A stretch of DNA of 43,020 nt from a virus. The DNA lies in IMG/VR virus record IMGVR_UViG_3300020411_000578, positions 1 to 43,020 of that record; one strand, given 5' to 3'. The stretch's first letter is position 1. Each line of letters begins with the position of its first letter. The translations under genes were made by a program, and so were the position numbers. The notes below the pieces were generated by a model. The model was not told the DNA's origin. It saw only the letters and a list, made by a program, of their open reading frames with translations, and searched no databases. Below, piece after piece: positions 19,031-29,501 of this stretch.

Positions 19031-20415
19031 TGTTCGATACTGTCCTTTGCTAAGTTTAATTTTGTTGTGATCTCAGGTGCGGACCATTTGTGTTTCACAC
19101 CTATCACAATATAGTTCCCAGAATAGGTTTCGTCAAGTTCCAAACGTTCAGACTGATCTTCAGATTGAGACTTGGGTATCCTAATGTTAACTATGTCACC
19201 TGCATCTATGGAAATATTTCCAGGGACTGTTATATCTAGTCGAATAGCGTTTAACAGTTGCCAACGTGATGCAGAATATGCTGAACTTGTAACAGTGTCA
19301 AAGTTCATATTTGACGATGAACCTTCTGGGTTATCTGAGTTTTGAGCATTCTTCATACCTGGAAGTGCTCTTATTTTTATACGAGTAGGTTTCTCTTCTG
19401 AGAAATATTCGTCGTTTGCTCTGTTAAAGGGGAAGTCACTATTAAGAGTTTGTGCTAAATCAAATACTTGTCTAGCACCAAGATTGACTGGAGGATTTAT
19501 AGATCCCGCAGGTGATGTGTCCTCTGCCCCTGTTTCTGCTGTGCCACCATTAGTAGGTAAATTACCTTCAGTTAATGCGGGCAATAGTATTCCAATAACA
19601 ACATTACTATATAATCCTTTACGCATCCTTTCTAGATGATTGGCACGATCTGGATAGTTCACTGTTTCTATATTATAAAAGTTATTTGCATTATCTGTGA
19701 GATTAGATTGCACGTAAGTAAATATTTTTGGTGCTTTTTGGGTTGGATTTTTTTCAGAACACAAGTAGTCCATTGTTGCAAAATTCATACCCTTACGTGT
19801 TTGCCAATACATATATCCAGGTCGTTTAGACTCGGAACCAACGATCTTATCTGCAAGATAAGAAATCACGTCATAAGGTCTCCAAGATGTAGATATAAAA
19901 TTATAATTACCTGCTGACTTTTCCCACATATTATGTGTAGTCTCTTTTAAATAACCTTTCTCAACATCTTCAACGGTAGTAGATCCTGGTTGATCTTCAA
20001 ATGATTTAAAAACACGATTAGTTTCATTCAATGCTGTGCTTGGTGATGTAGTGTAAATTATATAAGTCTGTGCACGTTCTGCCTTTGTAACACTACCAAT
20101 TTTATATACTTTTTGTATAATTTCTAATTCCTCTTCACCTGACGAATCAGTTTTCATAGTAAGTTTAACATATTCATTACCCTGCAATTTTGATGATAAA
20201 TCTATAGTATCGTAAATTGCTATCTCCATTCTCATTGTAGGAGAATCTATAGATGACATAATATTAAATGCAGAACACAATCCAGTAAGATCAAAGGCAT
20301 TTTCACCATTGAAACTTAATTGAGACAAATCTTCCCTAGGAGAAAAGTCTTTTGGTTGTATAACAAGACCAAACTCCTGTATCGTATATCCTTTTGGTTG
20401 AGTTGATTCTGACAT
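19027..20415 (-). CDS. Baseplate hub protein, gp27-like
   Basis: This is a 462-residue protein with the same order of elements as T4 gp27: an N-terminal tube-like domain (IDSPTMRMEIAIYDTIDLSS, then a beta hairpin and EIIQKVYKIGSV, parallel to gp27 'LYGRNEGMLQFYDS...' ), a middle part with RPYDVISYLADKI and MYWQTRKGMNFATMDYL (gp27 'FVFVWQDIMGVNMMDYD'), and a C-terminal tube domain (GNISIDAGDIVNIRIP, then YIVIGVKHKWSAPEI). Position next to gp5 and the length (T4 391) support the hub role. Identity is low, so the name is an inference. Confidence 0.65.
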   Translation of the reverse strand: MSESTQPKGYTIQEFGLVIQPKDFSPREDLSQLSFNGENAFDLTGLCSAFNIMSSIDSPTMRMEIAIYDTIDLSSKLQGNEYVKLTMKTDSSGEEELEIIQKVYKIGSVTKAERAQTYIIYTTSPSTALNETNRVFKSFEDQPGSTTVEDVEKGYLKETTHNMWEKSAGNYNFISTSWRPYDVISYLADKIVGSESKRPGYMYWQTRKGMNFATMDYLCSEKNPTQKAPKIFTYVQSNLTDNANNFYNIETVNYPDRANHLERMRKGLYSNVVIGILLPALTEGNLPTNGGTAETGAEDTSPAGSINPPVNLGARQVFDLAQTLNSDFPFNRANDEYFSEEKPTRIKIRALPGMKNAQNSDNPEGSSSNMNFDTVTSSAYSASRWQLLNAIRLDITVPGNISIDAGDIVNIRIPKSQSEDQSERLELDETYSGNYIVIGVKHKWSAPEITTKLNLAKDSIEQ

Positions 20416-22604
20416 TAGAAGAAGTTACTCGGTGATGTATTACTTTCGGTCAAAAATCCAAACCTACTCTGAATATATGTATTGACCTCATCCTCTTTAC
20501 TTGGGAGAACAATTTCTTGACCTGCTCCACCTTCTTTTGTCTGTACAGGTCTTTCTATTACATCTAAAACTATAGTTTCTATGTTTGAGTTCATTGCAGC
20601 AGACTCTAACATTGCTTCTCCTTCGTTAACAGTATCTGTTAATGTTGATAACATTGATCCTGTGTCACCTTTACTACCAATAATTAATGCTGCTTCTAAT
20701 AGTCTTCTCATAGCAAGACCAGAATCTTTACGAGTATCTGGTGTGTCTATAGGAACTATCATCTCTGTTCCGTGACCTACAAATCCACCTATTGATCTAC
20801 TTACCACAGGATTGAATCCTACAGGATAACCTGATTGTGGTCCACGTATAAGTCCACCTTTACTCATACCACCTTTCAAACTCTCAAGCACTGATAAGGT
20901 TTCTTTCCAACTTTTAGTGTCTTTAGTTACTGCATTCTCACTTGCAGGTATTTCATCAAAGAATCTTGATAGATTTGCAGCAAATTGATTTACATCTATT
21001 TGTTCACCCAAGAACTCTTGGAAACCCGCCATATTCTTCAATTCTTTAAAGATCAGATCTTGACCGCTAGGATTGAATTTAAAAGTCTCAGGGTCTTTAC
21101 CCATATTCTTGACTGCTTGCAAAGCAGAACTCAATCTTATACCATAACGACCTAACTCTGCACTTTCACCATATTCTTTAACTAAGTCTGCTAGAGTTCT
21201 GTTAATCATAGAAGTATCAATACCCTCACCAAATTCACCATCTACTTTATCATATTTGAAACCTGGTTCAACAAAATCACCTAAGAAATTAGTACCTTTT
21301 AATGGATATGAGTTACTTCCTTCTTTATCAACACTAAAGTTTGTTCCTGATCCTGTAGATGAATTTGTTGTGGTTACTGTGTCGTCGTCTTCACCTCCAC
21401 TACCTGTCACCCACATTAACACTTTTGTTAGACCGTTTAATAAACTAATTAAAGGTTGAAATGCAAATTTGCCCAAGAAACCTGCAATTTCCATTATCTT
21501 AGGCATATGTGGTTCTATGAAATCAAGAACTTTATTTGCTACTTCTGCATATTGTTCAAAAAATTTCTTTATTGCATCACCTACTGGTTTTAGAGTTTTA
21601 TTGATCCACGCACCTACTTTTGAGAAAAATTTCTTTATTGGTTCAATAATATTTTTTACAATAGGACCAATATACTTACCTATGTGTTTTCCTAAGAATC
21701 CACCAAGAAGATTACCAATAGCACCACCAATTCCAGGTAATAACTGATTTCCTAAAGCACCAAGTGCCATAGCACCAGTTGTTGCACCAACTCCTCCACC
21801 GATTGCTGCTGATTGTCTATCCTCTTCTGGAATATCCTCATCATTCATTATATCATTATATGCTAGAAATCCTTGTCCTAAACCTAACGCTGCTTGACCA
21901 AGAACATTACCACCAAATACTTTTGCTAAATTAAGAACACCTTGACCAACAGTTTTAAGCATACCACTGAATGCTTTTAACATTGATGCAGGATTCTTTA
22001 AGAATGCCAATCCTGCTCCAACTAAACCTACCCCTGCTAATAACTTAACTGCACCTGCAAGTCTCGTCATAAAGGGTTTACCTTCACCAAATAATTGATT
22101 CCAAGATTTACCTATCCAACTAACTATCCCTGATACTACACTCCACAACCCTTTCACTATTATTCCCAGTCTATTCATTATCTTCGATAATTTTTTCTGG
22201 TTTTCGTCTTTACCTAACCAGTCTAAAGTGCTGTAAATTATCAAATTCTTAAATAATTTACCAAGATTTCCCAAAAATCCCGAACCACTTTTACCTAATA
22301 ATGCACCAACAGCAAAACCTAGAGATCCTTTTAAAAATCCCTTTGCGTATTTCATAGCATTAGACTTATCTCTTGCAAGTTGGTTTTTTCGCTCTTGTTC
22401 TTGCAGTTGCTGTTGCTGTTGTAATCTAGTTGATAATATTGCAGTACCTATACTATTTACAGTTGCTCCTAGGGAATTAATTGCACTAATGGTCGTGGAG
22501 AATTTAGAACCCGTTACTGTCTTATTGCCAATAGTAACCGTCGCACCTTTGTCCTCTGGAGGTGTAATAAATTTATAGAATCGTATTGACTTTTGTTGTG
22601 CCAT
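20415..22604 (-). CDS. Tape-measure-like / baseplate hub protein (paralogue 2)
   Basis: This is a 729-residue protein with a Lys/Gln-rich coiled-coil start (about 45-82, LQQQQQLQEQ), long hydrophobic amphipathic helices (85-330), and a glycine-rich membrane-like core at about 267-315 (IGGGVGATTGAMALGALG, then GGFLGKHIGKYIG). The same core occurs in the adjacent 763-residue protein, so the two are paralogues. The C-terminal part has GGFVGHGTEMIVPIDTPD, a tape-measure tail motif seen in many phages. By position it would cover the role of T4 gp29 (tape measure), but I see no clear gp29 similarity. It is start/stop coupled to both neighbours. Confidence 0.65.
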   Translation of the reverse strand: MAQQKSIRFYKFITPPEDKGATVTIGNKTVTGSKFSTTISAINSLGATVNSIGTAILSTRLQQQQQLQEQERKNQLARDKSNAMKYAKGFLKGSLGFAVGALLGKSGSGFLGNLGKLFKNLIIYSTLDWLGKDENQKKLSKIMNRLGIIVKGLWSVVSGIVSWIGKSWNQLFGEGKPFMTRLAGAVKLLAGVGLVGAGLAFLKNPASMLKAFSGMLKTVGQGVLNLAKVFGGNVLGQAALGLGQGFLAYNDIMNDEDIPEEDRQSAAIGGGVGATTGAMALGALGNQLLPGIGGAIGNLLGGFLGKHIGKYIGPIVKNIIEPIKKFFSKVGAWINKTLKPVGDAIKKFFEQYAEVANKVLDFIEPHMPKIMEIAGFLGKFAFQPLISLLNGLTKVLMWVTGSGGEDDDTVTTTNSSTGSGTNFSVDKEGSNSYPLKGTNFLGDFVEPGFKYDKVDGEFGEGIDTSMINRTLADLVKEYGESAELGRYGIRLSSALQAVKNMGKDPETFKFNPSGQDLIFKELKNMAGFQEFLGEQIDVNQFAANLSRFFDEIPASENAVTKDTKSWKETLSVLESLKGGMSKGGLIRGPQSGYPVGFNPVVSRSIGGFVGHGTEMIVPIDTPDTRKDSGLAMRRLLEAALIIGSKGDTGSMLSTLTDTVNEGEAMLESAAMNSNIETIVLDVIERPVQTKEGGAGQEIVLPSKEDEVNTYIQSRFGFLTESNTSPSNFF

Positions 22605-24895
22605 TAGTAAACTGTTGCCTCATTCTCTTCAAACTGAACGTTTGTCTCATCACCCACAGTTACAGTAGGTGTAACTACAGGTTGTATGACCACTGCACCT
22701 CCCTCTGTAGTATATGTTTTTTCATTGACCAAATCGTCTGAATTGGTTATATTCTCACCAGTATTTATTGTCTCTGGGTCAACATTATTCTTTACAATTT
22801 CATTTTCTTGTTTTGCAGGGAATATATCTGGATATAACTCTGCAATATCTAATTGATTTTTATTATATCCACGTTCAACCTTATGGTTTGTAAATGCTTG
22901 TAATAAAAGGTATGTAGATTTTGATGTTAAATTTTTAGGACCACTTTTAGTTCTGGAACTACTTTTATATTTTCTAGCATCCATCAATTCACCTATTTTA
23001 TCACCAGGTTTTACTCTAGTGTGATAATTAATTGTAGGTACTATATTTCTATATCCAATATCCTCATTTCCATCATCACCTTCAATAATCATTCCTCCTC
23101 TTCTATGATCACTCGAAGATTTACCTTTCTGGTATCCCCATCGACGTACTTTTCCTGCTTTCATAGCAAAAACAGGTATTGGAAAAGTTTCTGGGTCATT
23201 TGGTCTTATTATTCTACCACCTTTTAATCCTAACTTATCTTTTTCAGTTCCTCTACTATAATCTAGAAATCCATTTGGTAAAGGAAAAACTGGAGGAAGT
23301 AAAGCAGTTACACTTTCATTTTTTTGTGCTTCTTGTTCTATTTTTTGTTCTAACAGTTTTTGTTCCTCTTTTCTTATTTCTTCCTTTTTCCTCTCAATTT
23401 GTTCACCAATAGTATATCTCCAATTCCACGCTTTATAGTCCTCACCCTTTTGTTCTGCTATTTTTTCTAATCTTTCTAATTTTTCATTTTTTAAATCTAT
23501 ACTTATCTCAGTGTTTTCTACTCTTCTGTTTATTTTATCTTCATCACTGCCTATGTTGAATAAATTTGCAACTCGGTTCATCTGCTGTTTACCCAATCTA
23601 ACCAACTTTTTCAAATCATACAACGCTTCTTGAAACCAAGGTGAATTAATCATATCAACAATTTTTTCAATACCTGCATCTACTAGGGGTTTAAATATTT
23701 CTTTCATCTTGGCGAAAAGTGGTGCCAATCCATCTTTCCATAGGTCAGCAAACGCTTCTGACACTGGTTCAAAAAGTGCCTTGAATATCTTAAAGTACAT
23801 ACCAAATGATCTCTTAATAGGTTTGAACATTGGTGTAAAAGCATCACCTAAGAACGCACCTATCTTATCTCCTAGGAAAGAACCTAGCATTTGACCAACA
23901 ATCGGACCAAATGGACCAAGTACAGGTGTAAGTAATGCACCCATAGCAATACCACCAATAGCAGCACCTGCACCACCACCGATAGCATTTTGTAAAGACT
24001 TACCTGACGACAATCTATTTGCAAACGAGAAAATACCCGCTAATGCCGACATTCCTCCACCTTTAAGGAATCTACCTGCACCTTTACCAAACCCTTTAAG
24101 GAATTTACTTCCTTTCTGTAAAAATCTACCACCCTTAACTTTGGCAAGACGTTTTAAACGAAGCATTCTTTTAGCACGCAATGCTTGTTTTAATTTTCTT
24201 TGTTTTATTATTCTTCTACCTTCTGCAAATCTCTTACCTGATCCTTGTTTACCAAATCTAAGAAAATCTACCATTTTCTTTAATTTTTTGAAATCACTTA
24301 TCAATTTCCACGGTCTTAATATTCTACCTGCTACAAAAAATCCTGCCATTCCACCTATAAATTTCAATGCTCCCATTAAAAAACTGTCTTCAGAAAGTCC
24401 ATCAAATATTAGACCTACACTCATATTTGTTACTTTATAGAGTGCTTTGAACCAACCACCAATGACTGCCAAACCTATTTGTAAATCATATCTTTTTCCA
24501 GGTTGCTCTAAGAAAGTTAATCCTACAAACCATCCCAATGCAGACTTTGCTAACCACTTTAGGGGTTTTAAAAGTGCTTCTAACCACCCCCATTTTTTAG
24601 ACTCACTTCTAGTTTCTGACTTAACACCACTCTCTACATCTTCCTTCTTTATATTTTTATTGTATGCCTCTTCCTTTTTTCTATCTTCTTCTAGTTGTTT
24701 TGCTCTTTCTGCTTCTGCTTTAAGTAATGAATCCTGTTGTCTTGCTAAGTCATCAACTAACAACTGACCAATATCTGCCACAGCATATCCCAACCTATTG
24801 ATACTAAAAGTCAAGGTCTTAACTGGATCTCCCGCAGGACCACTAGGTGTCGGAGCAAGAAATTTTTTAATCTTTAGTGTTGGTGATTTTGCCAC
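22604..24895 (-). CDS. Tape-measure-like / hub protein with degenerate M23-peptidase-like domain (paralogue 1)
   Basis: This 763-residue protein starts at GTG 24895, one base from the stop of the preceding ORF. Parts in order: an N-terminal motif shared with its paralogue (LKIKKFLAP..., SINRLGYAVADIG, 29-43), a coiled coil (50-90), hydrophobic helices (105-190), a very basic stretch (190-270, KQRKLKQALRAKRMLRLKR), the glycine-rich core (303-350), a second coiled coil (455-525) and a domain at about 555-670 laid out like an M23/LytM peptidase: PVFAMKAGKVRRWG, GGMIIEGDDGN, NYHTRVKPGDKIG. The usual LHFE-type zinc ligands are replaced (TYLLLQAF), so it is probably not catalytic. Confidence 0.65.
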   Translation of the reverse strand: MAKSPTLKIKKFLAPTPSGPAGDPVKTLTFSINRLGYAVADIGQLLVDDLARQQDSLLKAEAERAKQLEEDRKKEEAYNKNIKKEDVESGVKSETRSESKKWGWLEALLKPLKWLAKSALGWFVGLTFLEQPGKRYDLQIGLAVIGGWFKALYKVTNMSVGLIFDGLSEDSFLMGALKFIGGMAGFFVAGRILRPWKLISDFKKLKKMVDFLRFGKQGSGKRFAEGRRIIKQRKLKQALRAKRMLRLKRLAKVKGGRFLQKGSKFLKGFGKGAGRFLKGGGMSALAGIFSFANRLSSGKSLQNAIGGGAGAAIGGIAMGALLTPVLGPFGPIVGQMLGSFLGDKIGAFLGDAFTPMFKPIKRSFGMYFKIFKALFEPVSEAFADLWKDGLAPLFAKMKEIFKPLVDAGIEKIVDMINSPWFQEALYDLKKLVRLGKQQMNRVANLFNIGSDEDKINRRVENTEISIDLKNEKLERLEKIAEQKGEDYKAWNWRYTIGEQIERKKEEIRKEEQKLLEQKIEQEAQKNESVTALLPPVFPLPNGFLDYSRGTEKDKLGLKGGRIIRPNDPETFPIPVFAMKAGKVRRWGYQKGKSSSDHRRGGMIIEGDDGNEDIGYRNIVPTINYHTRVKPGDKIGELMDARKYKSSSRTKSGPKNLTSKSTYLLLQAFTNHKVERGYNKNQLDIAELYPDIFPAKQENEIVKNNVDPETINTGENITNSDDLVNEKTYTTEGGAVVIQPVVTPTVTVGDETNVQFEENEATVY

Positions 24896-25069
24896 TTACA
24901 GTGTTTGATGTTGTGAATTTGCCTGTTTCTGACGTGCTTCTTCCTCACGAAGATGTCGTATGAGCATATTTACATAGACATCCCTCTCCCAAGGCATCAT
25001 AGATTCTAATTCAGTCAGACTATACTTATGATGTTGCATTAATGCAAAGTTCACTTCATATAGATTCAT
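24896..25069 (-). CDS. Hub assembly chaperone-like ORF (gp51 position), probable -1 frameshift extension of gp26
   Basis: This 57-codon ORF starts at ATG 25069, inside the gap after gp26, and ends at 24896. It reads MNLYEVNFALMQHHKYSLTE and continues LESMMPWERDVYVNMLIRHL, ending in a charged coil. The 'LTELE.M.PWER..Y...L..HL.EE' pattern is that of tail-assembly chaperone extensions (the T part of lambda G-T and analogues), which lie just before tape-measure genes, as here. Its frame is open upstream into gp26 in the -1 frame, through RIALSHDTL, to a TTTTTTC slippery site. It could be made alone, as the fusion, or both. It occupies the place of T4 gene 51. Confidence 0.75.
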   Translation of the reverse strand: MNLYEVNFALMQHHKYSLTELESMMPWERDVYVNMLIRHLREEEARQKQANSQHQTL

Positions 25070-25082
25070 CAATGTATCGTGT

Positions 25083-25117
25083 GAGAGGGCTATGCGAAAA
25101 AACTTGCCATCCCCTCC
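25083..25117 (-). promoter_or_regulatory. Candidate programmed -1 ribosomal frameshift site (gp26 / gp51-like)
   Basis: On the minus strand the heptamer T TTT TTC (25096-25102) lies in the correct phase, two codons before the gp26 stop at 25090. Slipping back one base continues into the 57-codon ORF without a stop. A Shine-Dalgarno-like GGAGGGG (25111-25117) lies 8 bases upstream, as in the dnaX frameshift site. It could also pair with CCCTC downstream (25085-25089), enclosing the slip site. Confidence 0.65.
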
Positions 25118-25800
25118 AGAACCATCTCACTCTTCTTCTCAGTCTTTGGATTGAAAACTTCAATAGTATGAGATACTTTAGGCATTGATTCAAAAAAGTT
25201 TTGCACTTTCTGAAACTGCATATTGTTCATAGTTTCAAAGAAGTTTATGAGTTCTCCTTTCTTGTATGCTTTTGCGTTTTCTACCTCTTCACCGTTGGCA
25301 ATTTGGTCTACACAATCTGCTGCAAGTTGGAAAATGTCATCAAGTTTAGGATCATCTGCTAGATTATTCTTTACAAATGTATCAATAGAAGGATACTTCA
25401 TCACGAGTGTGACTTCATCAGTAATTTTTATTTTATTTGTATGTTCTTTTGGAACAACTACTTCTACTTCCTCAAGATTAACTTCTACTTCAACTTGAGT
25501 CTCGTTATCATCAGGAGCAATGACTTTAAATTCACTGACTTCACCTACTGACTTAGCACGAATACGTAAGAACAAATATTCAATATCAAATGTAGCAAGT
25601 GTTTCTATTTTTTTAACACTCGTACAATTTTTAATAATCTCTTTAACTGCCTTGATCATTTCCTTTTGATCTTGAGATTCCATTGCCATATAAAGCAATT
25701 TCTCTTCACGAACTAGGAATGGACGGTATGTTACCTTTTGACCGAACGGTAGGGTACATTCATACTCAGGGACCACGAGGGTCGGCAATGGCATTGGCAT
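25090..25800 (-). CDS. gp26: Baseplate hub protein gp26-like (T4 baseplate family)
   Basis: This 236-residue protein has the T4 gp26-type layout: PLPTLVVPEYECTLPFGQKV, then YRPFLVREEKLLYMA (residues about 5-40), a helical core (MIKAVKEIIKNC), IEYLFLRIRAKSVGE (about 74-88), an acidic beta stretch (VNLEEVEVVVP) and a C-terminal helical part (YKKGELINFFETMNNMQFQ). 'PF..REEK.LL.A' and 'D.EYLFL.LRAKSVGE' are family signatures. T4 gp26 takes part in building the central hub. Its 3' end holds the frameshift heptamer that would fuse it to the gp51-position ORF (about 301 residues in total). Confidence 0.85.
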   Translation of the reverse strand: MPMPLPTLVVPEYECTLPFGQKVTYRPFLVREEKLLYMAMESQDQKEMIKAVKEIIKNCTSVKKIETLATFDIEYLFLRIRAKSVGEVSEFKVIAPDDNETQVEVEVNLEEVEVVVPKEHTNKIKITDEVTLVMKYPSIDTFVKNNLADDPKLDDIFQLAADCVDQIANGEEVENAKAYKKGELINFFETMNNMQFQKVQNFFESMPKVSHTIEVFNPKTEKKSEMVLEGMASFFA

Positions 25801-25838: not shown

Positions 25839-26531
25839 CTAACGACGGATTACATTCTGATCTATGTAATTACTTGCTCTCCAATCTCCCTGTGATCCTA
25901 TCTTTGCTTCCATACGTAGTCTTTCAACTCTGAACTGAACATCTAACTTCATCAATCGTGTCTGTTTATTGTCAAATGACATCACACTTACATTAGTAGG
26001 GAAACAATTAAATGCAGTCCAACTTGCTGTAACTTTATTTAATCTTGTCTGTCCTATTATTCTCCCTGTAAATGAGTCTGTTGCTCTAAGTATGTCATTA
26101 GATCCACCTTCATACTTATCTATGTGTATGTCTGCTGTGTAATCATCATAAAACATTGTTCTATTCTCAGAGTCTCTACTTATAATTTGAATCCAACGAT
26201 CAAAAACATACCTTGGCCACTGATTTACTGGAACTATGAACTGTATGTTCATCTCTTGTGGTTGTTGGAATGTAGCATACTTTCTTTCAATACCAAAGTT
26301 AGTTACACCTCCAGTCATCAATGCTCTTGATGGAATCTTTACTTCATCTGCAAGATAGTCTACAGCATCATTCCACTCATTTAATTCTACTGATCCACCT
26401 GGTCCTAAAGTATTAGCAGTATTTGCAAACACAAAACGAGGTGGTTGTATTGTGACCTCGAATAGATTACTCTTCGACGGTCCGTAATTACCTTTTGCTA
26501 GAAAATCTTGAAAACCTTTAAAATTTCTCAT
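25839..26531 (-). CDS. Baseplate tail-tube initiator gp54-like (tube-fold) protein
   Basis: This is a 230-residue protein with the same pattern as T4 gp54 and the tail-tube fold: SKSNLFEVTIQPPRFVF (about 19-35; gp54 'QRNNMFSCVFATTP'), ADEVKIPSRAL (about 61-71; gp54 'YSVKMPENRL'), MNIQFIVPVNQWPRYVFDRW (about 93-112; gp54 'LVISFRMD...RAMQDWV'), and FPTNVSVMSFD then LMKLDVQFRVERLR (gp54 'CIPISVSAPELSYD...TTFDVTFAYRV'). gp54 starts polymerisation of the tail tube on the baseplate. It is shorter than T4 gp54 (320). Alternative: a tube protein such as gp19, but the position among hub genes favours gp54. Confidence 0.65.
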   Translation of the reverse strand: MRNFKGFQDFLAKGNYGPSKSNLFEVTIQPPRFVFANTANTLGPGGSVELNEWNDAVDYLADEVKIPSRALMTGGVTNFGIERKYATFQQPQEMNIQFIVPVNQWPRYVFDRWIQIISRDSENRTMFYDDYTADIHIDKYEGGSNDILRATDSFTGRIIGQTRLNKVTASWTAFNCFPTNVSVMSFDNKQTRLMKLDVQFRVERLRMEAKIGSQGDWRASNYIDQNVIRR

Positions 26532-27444: not shown

Positions 27445-28485
27445 ATGTCATTAGTATATCCGAGATCAGTTCCTGGGAGTTCTCTTTTGCAAAACAGAAG
27501 AGATAGTTTCGAGACCAGTTTCGTAGACTATTTAGTAATAAAACACCACTCGTCAACAGATGGTAATCCATATTCTTACATTGGTAACAGTGGTGGATAT
27601 GGTAGTAACAGTGTGCTTGGTGGTGGTGGAGAAGCAGAAGGTAGTTTAAAAAATACAATTTATTTGTACCTACCACCAAAATTACAAGAACAATACTCTA
27701 CAAATTATGAAAGAACAACCGTTGGTGCAGCAGGTGTTCAAGCATTAGATGCAGGAGCAACAGCAGCAGCAGGAGGAGACGTAGATATAGTAAGTGCTAT
27801 TCAAACTACTGCAAAAGCAGCAAAACCTCAGTTTGTTATGGATAAAATTGCAGGTGCTTTAGGTACAATTAATAGTGCACTAGGAGCAAGTGGTTCTAAC
27901 TTAGATGCTAATAGTGTTGGTGCTTTAGTTAAGAAGAAAATATTTAACCCATACCAAGAAACAACATTCCGTGGTACAAACTATCGTTCACATAACTTTT
28001 CTTTCCAATGTCAACCACGTAACAGACAAGAATCAGATGAGTTATATAAGATAATAAACGTTCTCCGTAGAGGAATGTTACCAGAAATGCAAGATGCAGA
28101 TAAAGCAGAACAAACTGGAGTAACAGAAGGAGGTAATGAGACTGATACTACCCTTGCAGAAGAAGCATTTAGTGGGTCAGCAGCAGGTCGTTGGTTAGGA
28201 ATACCAGACTACTTTAGACTTGACATCATTCGTATAGCAGGAACACCAAGTGATGATGGTAGTTTAGAACTGAGTGGTGGTTCTCCAAAAGGATTGAAAA
28301 GAATTATGCAGTTCCCTACTAAAGTAGTGTTAAAAAATATGAGTATAAATTTATCTCCTGATGGTCCATATAATTCATTGAAAGATGCTTTTGATAGTAA
28401 TATGGATTACGGTCCTGCTTCTTTCACAATGTCTCTAGTTTTTGATGAGACTGCATTCCTTACTAGAAATTCACTAACAGTGTAA
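27445..28485 (+). CDS. gp48: Baseplate tail-tube cap gp48
   Basis: This is a 346-residue protein with gp48 features: KNTIYLYLPPKLQEQYSTNY (about 69-88, the 'I.LYLP' strand), TTFRGTNYRSHNFSFQCQPR (about 174-193; 'F....R...F.F...P.N..ES'), a helix NRQESDELYKIINVLRRGML and a C-terminal YFRLDIIRI, FPTKVVLKNMSINLSP, PASFTMSLVFDETAFLTR. gp48 binds the hub top and, with gp54, seeds tail-tube assembly. A Gly-rich loop (SYIGNSGGYGSNSVLGGGG) lies at 44-62. Transcribed on the plus strand from the box at 27360. Its stop overlaps the gp53 start by one base. Confidence 0.85.
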   Translation: MSLVYPRSVPGSSLLQNRRDSFETSFVDYLVIKHHSSTDGNPYSYIGNSGGYGSNSVLGGGGEAEGSLKNTIYLYLPPKLQEQYSTNYERTTVGAAGVQALDAGATAAAGGDVDIVSAIQTTAKAAKPQFVMDKIAGALGTINSALGASGSNLDANSVGALVKKKIFNPYQETTFRGTNYRSHNFSFQCQPRNRQESDELYKIINVLRRGMLPEMQDADKAEQTGVTEGGNETDTTLAEEAFSGSAAGRWLGIPDYFRLDIIRIAGTPSDDGSLELSGGSPKGLKRIMQFPTKVVLKNMSINLSPDGPYNSLKDAFDSNMDYGPASFTMSLVFDETAFLTRNSLTV

Positions 28486-29501
28486 TGGCATACTTTAAAT
28501 ACCTACCTAAAGTTTTTGTTAGAAATAAAACCAGAGTCAACGGTTCACAACCATATGAACTGTCTGTAAATATTTTTAGACGTATCAAAATCAGAGATGA
28601 TTTACAAGGTTCATTACTTGGATTCACTCAGTATGAGATACAAGATGGAACAAGACCTGATCAGGTTGCCTATGAGATATATAAAGATGCAGGTCTAGAC
28701 TGGGTAATTCTTCTAATTAATAACATTATTAATGTAAATGAAGATTGGCCAATGAATCGTGAAGATTTATACAACTATGTCCTAGACAAATACGGTTCTA
28801 TCGAAGGAGTAAAGCACTATGAAACAAAGGAGTATAAGAGTCCTAGTCTTGATCTTGTCCTACTTCCTGGTGGGATTACTGTTTCGGAGTCTTACCAATA
28901 CACGAAACCCGATGGCACCATCCTTCCAAAATCCGAATCTAGATCTTCAGTATCCTACTACTCCTATGAAGCAGCAATAAATGATACTAAGAGAAACATA
29001 TATCTTTTACGTCCACAATATCTAAATGACTTCATTGCAGAGTTCAAGAAGTTAGCAAGGTATCTTCCTAACATTGAACTAGATTCTTCTAACAATAAGA
29101 AAACACAAGGATCTCTTGCTGAAGAATTTATCGGTCTACCCAAGTACAATCGTCCAAGACAGAGCACTGCATCAACAGGTTCTGCATCTGGTGGTGGTTC
29201 TTCTACTGCATTAATATCTTCTGGTGGTTCATCAGCAGCGTCGTCAACAACCACGACAACTACATCTACAGGTGTAACATTAAGTACAACAGATTCAAAT
29301 GCCTCTTCCGCTACAACTTATAATAATACATCATCTACTGACACAAGTTCCTCGTCAAGCAGTTCATCGAGTTCGTCATCAAGTTCATCAAGTTCTTCAT
29401 CCTCAAGTGGATCAAGTAGTTCTAGTTCTTCTAGTGGTTCTTCTAGTTCTAGCGGGTCTTCGGGATCAAGTGGGGGTGGATACTACGGAGGAGGGTACTA
29501 A
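28485..29501 (+). CDS. gp53: Baseplate wedge gp53 with serine-rich C-terminal tail
   Basis: This 338-residue protein has the gp53 wedge domain in its first half: MAYFKYLPKVFVRNK, VNIFRRIKIRDDLQGSL, TQYEIQDGTRPDQVAYEIYK (LysM-like fold), GLDWVILLINNI (about 76-87) and WPMNREDLYNYVLDKYGS. gp53 helps join the wedges into the baseplate. From about residue 225 the protein becomes a low-complexity tail of Ser, Thr and Gly ending in SGGGYYGGGY. This makes it far longer than T4 gp53 (196). The serine codons in the tail are mixed. It ends in convergence with the 81-residue minus gene, with overlapping stop codons. Confidence 0.85.
   Translation: MAYFKYLPKVFVRNKTRVNGSQPYELSVNIFRRIKIRDDLQGSLLGFTQYEIQDGTRPDQVAYEIYKDAGLDWVILLINNIINVNEDWPMNREDLYNYVLDKYGSIEGVKHYETKEYKSPSLDLVLLPGGITVSESYQYTKPDGTILPKSESRSSVSYYSYEAAINDTKRNIYLLRPQYLNDFIAEFKKLARYLPNIELDSSNNKKTQGSLAEEFIGLPKYNRPRQSTASTGSASGGGSSTALISSGGSSAASSTTTTTTSTGVTLSTTDSNASSATTYNNTSSTDTSSSSSSSSSSSSSSSSSSSSSGSSSSSSSSGSSSSSGSSGSSGGGYYGGGY
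29159..29495 (+). repeat. Serine/threonine/glycine low-complexity coding tract
   Basis: About 110 codons of almost only Ser, Thr, Gly and Ala, including a run of over 20 serines. The serine codons alternate among TCA, AGT, TCT, TCG, TCC and AGC, so the tract is not a simple DNA triplet repeat; it is kept at the protein level. It forms the disordered tail of gp53. Confidence 0.85.

Follow-up and report, generated by a model that had tools for sequence, protein, structure and literature searches.

Phage lambda shifts frame at the heptamer G GGA AAG. Frameshifting is also said to be conserved in several T4-like groups, with genes 26 and 51 used in the T4 group, in work published by Vladimirov, Gautam and Davidson in 2022 (Virology). 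The function of the lambda G/G-T pair has been summarised in a 2016 account (PMC5009743), according to which G-T frameshifting is a widely conserved trait of long-tailed phages other than T4. Passages of two papers credit Vladimirov et al. 2022 with findings in T4-like phages: that describing PRFect (PMC10885494) with phages carrying a short gene together with a fused gene, and the other (PMC12846349) with poly-T -1 signals in genes for TAC-N, the short tail assembly chaperone. As far as can be judged, a frameshift of this kind in T4-like phages had already been put forward in the 2022 study, which contradicts an earlier note on the DNA studied here, according to which the arrangement had not been described for T4-like hub genes. 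A literature search reaching few subscription journals found no cyanophage-specific report of a gp26 frameshift. New in the present analysis are the breadth of the comparison, a within-gene control, selection on a Shine-Dalgarno (SD)-like element, lineage-specific hairpins and, for the T4 branch, the disappearance of the site through synonymous change.

The locus lies on the minus strand of a 43,020-nt stretch of DNA from a cyanophage-like virus (IMG/VR record IMGVR_UViG_3300020411_000578, positions 1 to 43,020), referred to below as the window. It very probably employs -1 frameshifting of the lambda G/G-T type to yield two proteins, TAC-N and TAC-NC, from one gene, gp26; we infer the slippage, its rate and the chaperone role, and adopt the frameshift reading because of the heptamer, its phase and conservation, selection on the -1 frame, the SD codon bias, an in-frame counterpart in T4 and a TAC-like predicted fold. 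The closest relatives are the T4-like chaperones gp26 and gp51, with which the locus shares the families PF12322, phrog_150 and phrog_634 and the pairing of an N with an N+C form; in T4, however, the long form is a separate in-frame gene 51 and gp26 is non-slippery, whereas the window phage has the frameshift arrangement. Compared with lambda gpG/gpGT (Xu et al. 2004), the heptamer is different and gp26 is larger (236 aa), and sequence similarity between the two is not claimed. In Pseudomonas phage Adele and other Vandenendeviridae (PMC12846349), too, a myovirus TAC-N gene carries a T-rich -1 signal at its 3' end and the -1 frame is open across the locus, but their motif is GTTTTT and they belong to another phage family. 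Escherichia coli dnaX likewise has an SD-like stimulator ahead of a homopolymer-rich heptamer; its heptamer is A AAA AAG and it has a strong downstream stem-loop, whereas the window lacks a clear hairpin. The features of the locus are as follows.

25839..26531, minus strand: tail tube-like protein just upstream of gp26 (phrog_45 tail tube, 5.8e-33)
25090..25800, minus strand: gp26, proposed TAC-N, 236 aa, stop TAG at 25090-25092 (PF12322, 1.5e-66; phrog_150, 1.1e-72; predicted fold)
25111..25117, minus strand: SD-like GGAGGGG, proposed internal stimulator (anti-SD duplex -9.8 kcal/mol; codon bias in relatives)
25096..25102, minus strand: slippery heptamer T TTT TTC, of the form X XXY YYZ in phase with gp26 (in-phase T TTT TTN in 247/248 related loci)
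24896..25096, minus strand: -1 frame extension (TAC-C, 'gp51'), 66 aa, beginning with CGC and closed by the stop codon 24896-24898 (phrog_634, 5.2e-25; pN/pS)
22604..24895, minus strand: tape-measure-like protein, 763 aa (weak phrog_167 tape measure match, 2e-8, and position)
20415..22604, minus strand: another tape-measure-like protein, 729 aa, containing a paralogous segment (weak phrog_167 match, 2.8e-8; BLASTP to its neighbour, 6e-7)

The gene order is thus tail tube (phrog_45), TAC and tape measure protein, and the 763-aa gene opens with a GTG directly after the stop codon of the extension. The description of the downstream genes as tape-measure-like in the earlier note has weak profile matches (best 2e-8) and gene position in its favour; in the public record of Cr30 a tape measure protein is annotated downstream of gp26. 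The adjacent 763- and 729-aa proteins have a glycine-rich paralogous segment in common (E 6e-7). Elsewhere in the window, the plus-strand ORF at 28485-29501 ends in a long low-complexity tail rich in Ser, Gly and Tyr.

The 3' end of gp26 reads GGG ATG GCA AGT TTT TTC GCA TAG on the minus strand, which agrees with the proposal that T TTT TTC lies in the gp26 phase two codons before the stop. GGAGGGG also lies where it had been reported, with a spacer of exactly 8 nt before the heptamer (ATGGCAAG), and its SD-like codons are under synonymous selection in relatives. From CGC the -1 frame runs through the nine codons R-I-A-L-S-H-D-T-L to the ATG of a 57-codon ORF that ends at 24896, again as proposed. 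One correction was added: the -1 frame opens just 11 codons ahead of the gp26 stop, and the two frames overlap only around the slip site. The predicted fusion comprises gp26 residues 1-235 and the 66-aa extension (301 aa in total), as against 236 aa for the short form. As a plain string TTTTTTC occurs at chance level in the window (16 found on both strands, 15.9 expected); the slip site is the sole minus-strand copy, and no other T TTT TTC is in phase within the coding sequence examined, where the two other in-phase T TTT TTN sites both end in TTA and both lie inside genes. Stop-codon readthrough was considered as another route to a longer product and rejected, as the 0 frame reaches a TGA seven codons past the TAG. 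The sequence U UUU UUC belongs to the H_HH.U_UU.Y class, which is efficient in E. coli (PMC4066793).

Under the frameshift reading, most ribosomes would terminate at the TAG and produce TAC-N of 236 aa. Pairing of GGAGGGG with the anti-SD of 16S rRNA would probably hold the ribosome back at the slip site, where in a minority of cases the P- and A-site Phe-tRNAs on T TTT TTC would slip by one base to TTT TTT. Such ribosomes would continue through SFF-RIALSHD into the gp51-like domain, giving TAC-NC of 301 aa. If the lambda G/G-T pair is a guide, TAC-N might then coat the tape measure protein, while the C domain might recruit tail tube subunits.

The earlier note had proposed to examine whether the slippery site, its phase and the open -1 frame are conserved in relatives, and all three were found to be retained. 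Loci were collected by gp26 similarity, not by the presence of the heptamer. The 248 loci with a readable gp26 stop encode 195 distinct proteins, which form about 39 clusters at 60% identity and are related rather than independent sequences. They come from viral contigs and from named phages of Synechococcus, Sinorhizobium, Caulobacter, Stenotrophomonas, Aeromonas, Vibrio, Desulfovibrio, Pseudoalteromonas and Ochrobactrum; two Ackermannviridae phages and the T4-type phages are omitted from this set. In 247 of the 248 loci the last 60 nt of gp26 contain T TTT TTN in phase (TTC in 229, TTT in 16, TTG and TTA in one each), and no stop interrupts the -1 frame in any of 131 sequences. The distance from the start of the heptamer to the stop codon varies across loci (10, 7, 31, 13 or 16 nt), while the heptamer and its phase stay constant. 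The single exception, locus L178 (2250-2256), lacks one of the Ts present in the run of the near-identical L177, perhaps through a mutation or an error in sequencing.

A control within the same genes was provided by their other Phe-Phe pairs. Among 134 distinct sequences the terminal pair is TTT TTC in 132 and TTT TTT in two, always preceded by T, whereas the 159 internal pairs are mostly TTC TTT (114), followed by TTT TTT (31), TTC TTC (11) and TTT TTC (3); it should be noted that these sequences are related and not independent trials, the contrast being drawn within the same genes. Elsewhere in these genes 58% of Phe codons are TTT. The preceding T is likewise unexplained by codon usage, since only 31% of Ala codons and 60% of Ser codons elsewhere end in T. 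In phiM9 and XG4, Leu replaces the second Phe, yet T TTT TTN is kept. The two Ackermannviridae phages, Vibrio 1.244.A (L171) and Salmonella pertopsoe (L172), have a -1 ORF with a PWH motif after gp26, but no canonical in-phase heptamer was found at the ends of their gp26 genes (TCA CTT TTT CGC TAA and GAG ATT TTC ATT TAA, respectively); their C domain may be reached through another shift motif or by separate initiation.

The -1 frame is under purifying selection, including where no start codon lies upstream. The spacing from the heptamer to the PWE motif is 36 codons in 131 of 134 sequences. Over extension codons 3-19 pN/pS is 0.39 in the -1 frame, while the two other readings of these bases give 1.25 and 1.38; over codons 20-44 the -1 frame value is 0.19. 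These values bear on the possibility that the downstream ORF stands as a gene in its own right, gp51, begun at its own ATG, GTG or TTG or translationally coupled to the gp26 stop. Two genes are indeed listed in most annotated records examined, and the window ATG, nine codons into the extension, could give a stand-alone 57-aa product. In 27 distinct proteins, however, codons 2-19 contain no ATG, GTG or TTG; this group has a pN/pS of 0.32 over codons 3-19, and because of this value the latter codons are considered to be selected as protein without a preceding start codon. Among the first 16 extension codons, only 8 of 134 sequences have a start that is preceded by an SD-like core. Given the scarcity of SD-preceded starts and the selection where no start codon exists, independent initiation is therefore not the general route. 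It may add some product in phi-ST2 (TAATG) and in Marzo and Cr30 (TGATG), where an ATG overlaps the gp26 stop. A separate gene would also leave the heptamer and the codon choice unexplained, and in S-WAM1, AsFcp_4 and ORM_20 no gene is annotated at this position. On balance we consider this explanation very unlikely.

Slightly less credible still is transcriptional rather than ribosomal slippage on the T run. Every site is indeed a homopolymer of at least six Ts, and one T was lost in L178. A run of six Ts is nevertheless short for efficient slippage by RNA polymerase; most of the runs are six Ts followed by C, the invariant phase is not needed by such a process, and the SD-like codons are biased. 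That a conserved Phe-Phe end of gp26 lies by coincidence next to an unrelated -1 ORF accords with the invariance of this pair in protein alignments, but we regard it as practically negligible: the terminal codon choice is sharply unlike that of the internal pairs, phiM9 and XG4 keep the heptamer despite the Leu substitution, and T4, which has a separate fused gp51, retains the pair in non-slippery codons.

For the proposed -1 frameshift, selection on the upstream element was traced through a conserved Leu-Glu-Gly. Its Glu codon is GAG in 91 of 128 sequences versus 34% elsewhere (p 8e-17, kinship ignored). Where it is GAA, the Gly codon is GGA or GGG in 37/37, even though Gly is most often encoded by GGT (p 3e-8, kinship ignored). 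The predicted anti-SD pairing exceeds that of synonymous resamples in 74% of sequences, and the window is among the strong cases (-9.8 kcal/mol versus a mean of -6.6, z -2.3 by synonymous resampling). Judging from the sequence, GGAGGGG probably acts as a frameshift stimulator.

Downstream structure is not always present in prokaryotic frameshift signals (PMC4066793). In the relatives, downstream folding averages lower than in synonymous resamples (mean z -1.5; below -2 in 34%), with marked hairpins whose start lies 5-9 nt beyond the heptamer in S-PM2, ME01, L123, L145 and others. No convincing stem-loop was found downstream of the heptamer in the window (z about +0.3 to +0.9), and an Rfam scan of the locus gave no matches. 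RNAalifold detected no common downstream structure in 131 aligned sequences, and the hairpins are therefore lineage-specific. For a trade-off between the strength of the SD-like element and that of the hairpin, no clear correlation emerged (MFE z, rho 0.13, p 0.13; raw MFE, rho 0.24, p 0.005, with the same sign).

A direct counterpart of the predicted fusion was found in T4. Its gp51 is an in-frame N+C fusion with PF12322 in residues 1-201 followed by the C domain, while T4 gp26 has the first domain (PF12322) only. The profile phrog_634 (hub assembly catalyst) matches both the extension and T4 gp51, and in hhalign the extension profile aligned with T4 gp51 residues 201-242 (E 4e-4), with no match to T4 gp26. 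The extension also matches positions 243-279 of the 282-position profile phrog_150, which implies that members of this family carry both parts in one protein.

The slip site has degenerated in phages that encode the fusion directly. In T4, KPN6 and VR20, which have the separate gp51 fusion, gp26 still ends in GLKEFF, but the Phe pair is written TTC TTT after an A or G, and a conserved -1 ORF is lacking at these ends. The gp26 of L261, a locus compared here by this gene only, ends in GAG TTT TTT, the X position being G, and the Phe-Phe pair has been lost from the end of gp26 in G5211, 44RR and an Acinetobacter phage. With T4 gp26 as the query, few viral contigs were retrieved. We tentatively put forward, as a possible generalisation, that T4-like phages tune one chaperone frameshift by interchangeable stimulators, either an SD-like element, as in the window, or a stem-loop 5-9 nt downstream, and that the T4 branch dropped the frameshift once it had acquired a separate gene for the fusion, its gp26 retaining TTC TTT as a site disarmed by synonymous change.

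The AlphaFold2 model of gp26 (pLDDT 87.7, pTM 0.81) gave no significant Foldseek match in the PDB, where the HK97 tail assembly chaperone appeared at E about 1, and a PDB sequence search with the gp26 profile gave no matches. When the model was compared by VIA-align, in which Z below 8 denotes a moderate fold match, the HK97 TAC (2ob9) reached Z 7.2 (rmsd 4.9, 84 of 107 residues) and YqbN (3klu), which we take to be an XkdN-like phage protein, Z 6.9 (rmsd 4.7, 85 residues), the next candidate standing at Z 2.8. The two leaders are of the phage tail chaperone type and clear of the rest, which gives moderate support to a TAC-like N domain in the predicted structure. This fold and the in-frame fusion in T4 gp51 uphold the analogy with lambda G/G-T drawn in the earlier note, and together with the heptamer, the selection on the -1 frame and the SD codons they support the frameshift between gp26 and the gp51-position ORF that it had proposed.

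The annotated cyanophage records examined list gp26 and gp51 as two baseplate-hub genes. Reading them as TAC-N and TAC-NC would correct both the function and the gene model, and would support the view that T4 gp26, long listed as a hub subunit, and T4 gp51, long listed as the hub assembly catalyst, act as tail assembly chaperones. The T4 branch offers a natural experiment in this respect, the slip site having been lost where the fusion has a gene of its own. In the public records of ORM_20 (L174), AsFcp_4 (L175) and S-WAM1 (L176), the conserved C-domain ORF is present in the sequence and unannotated.
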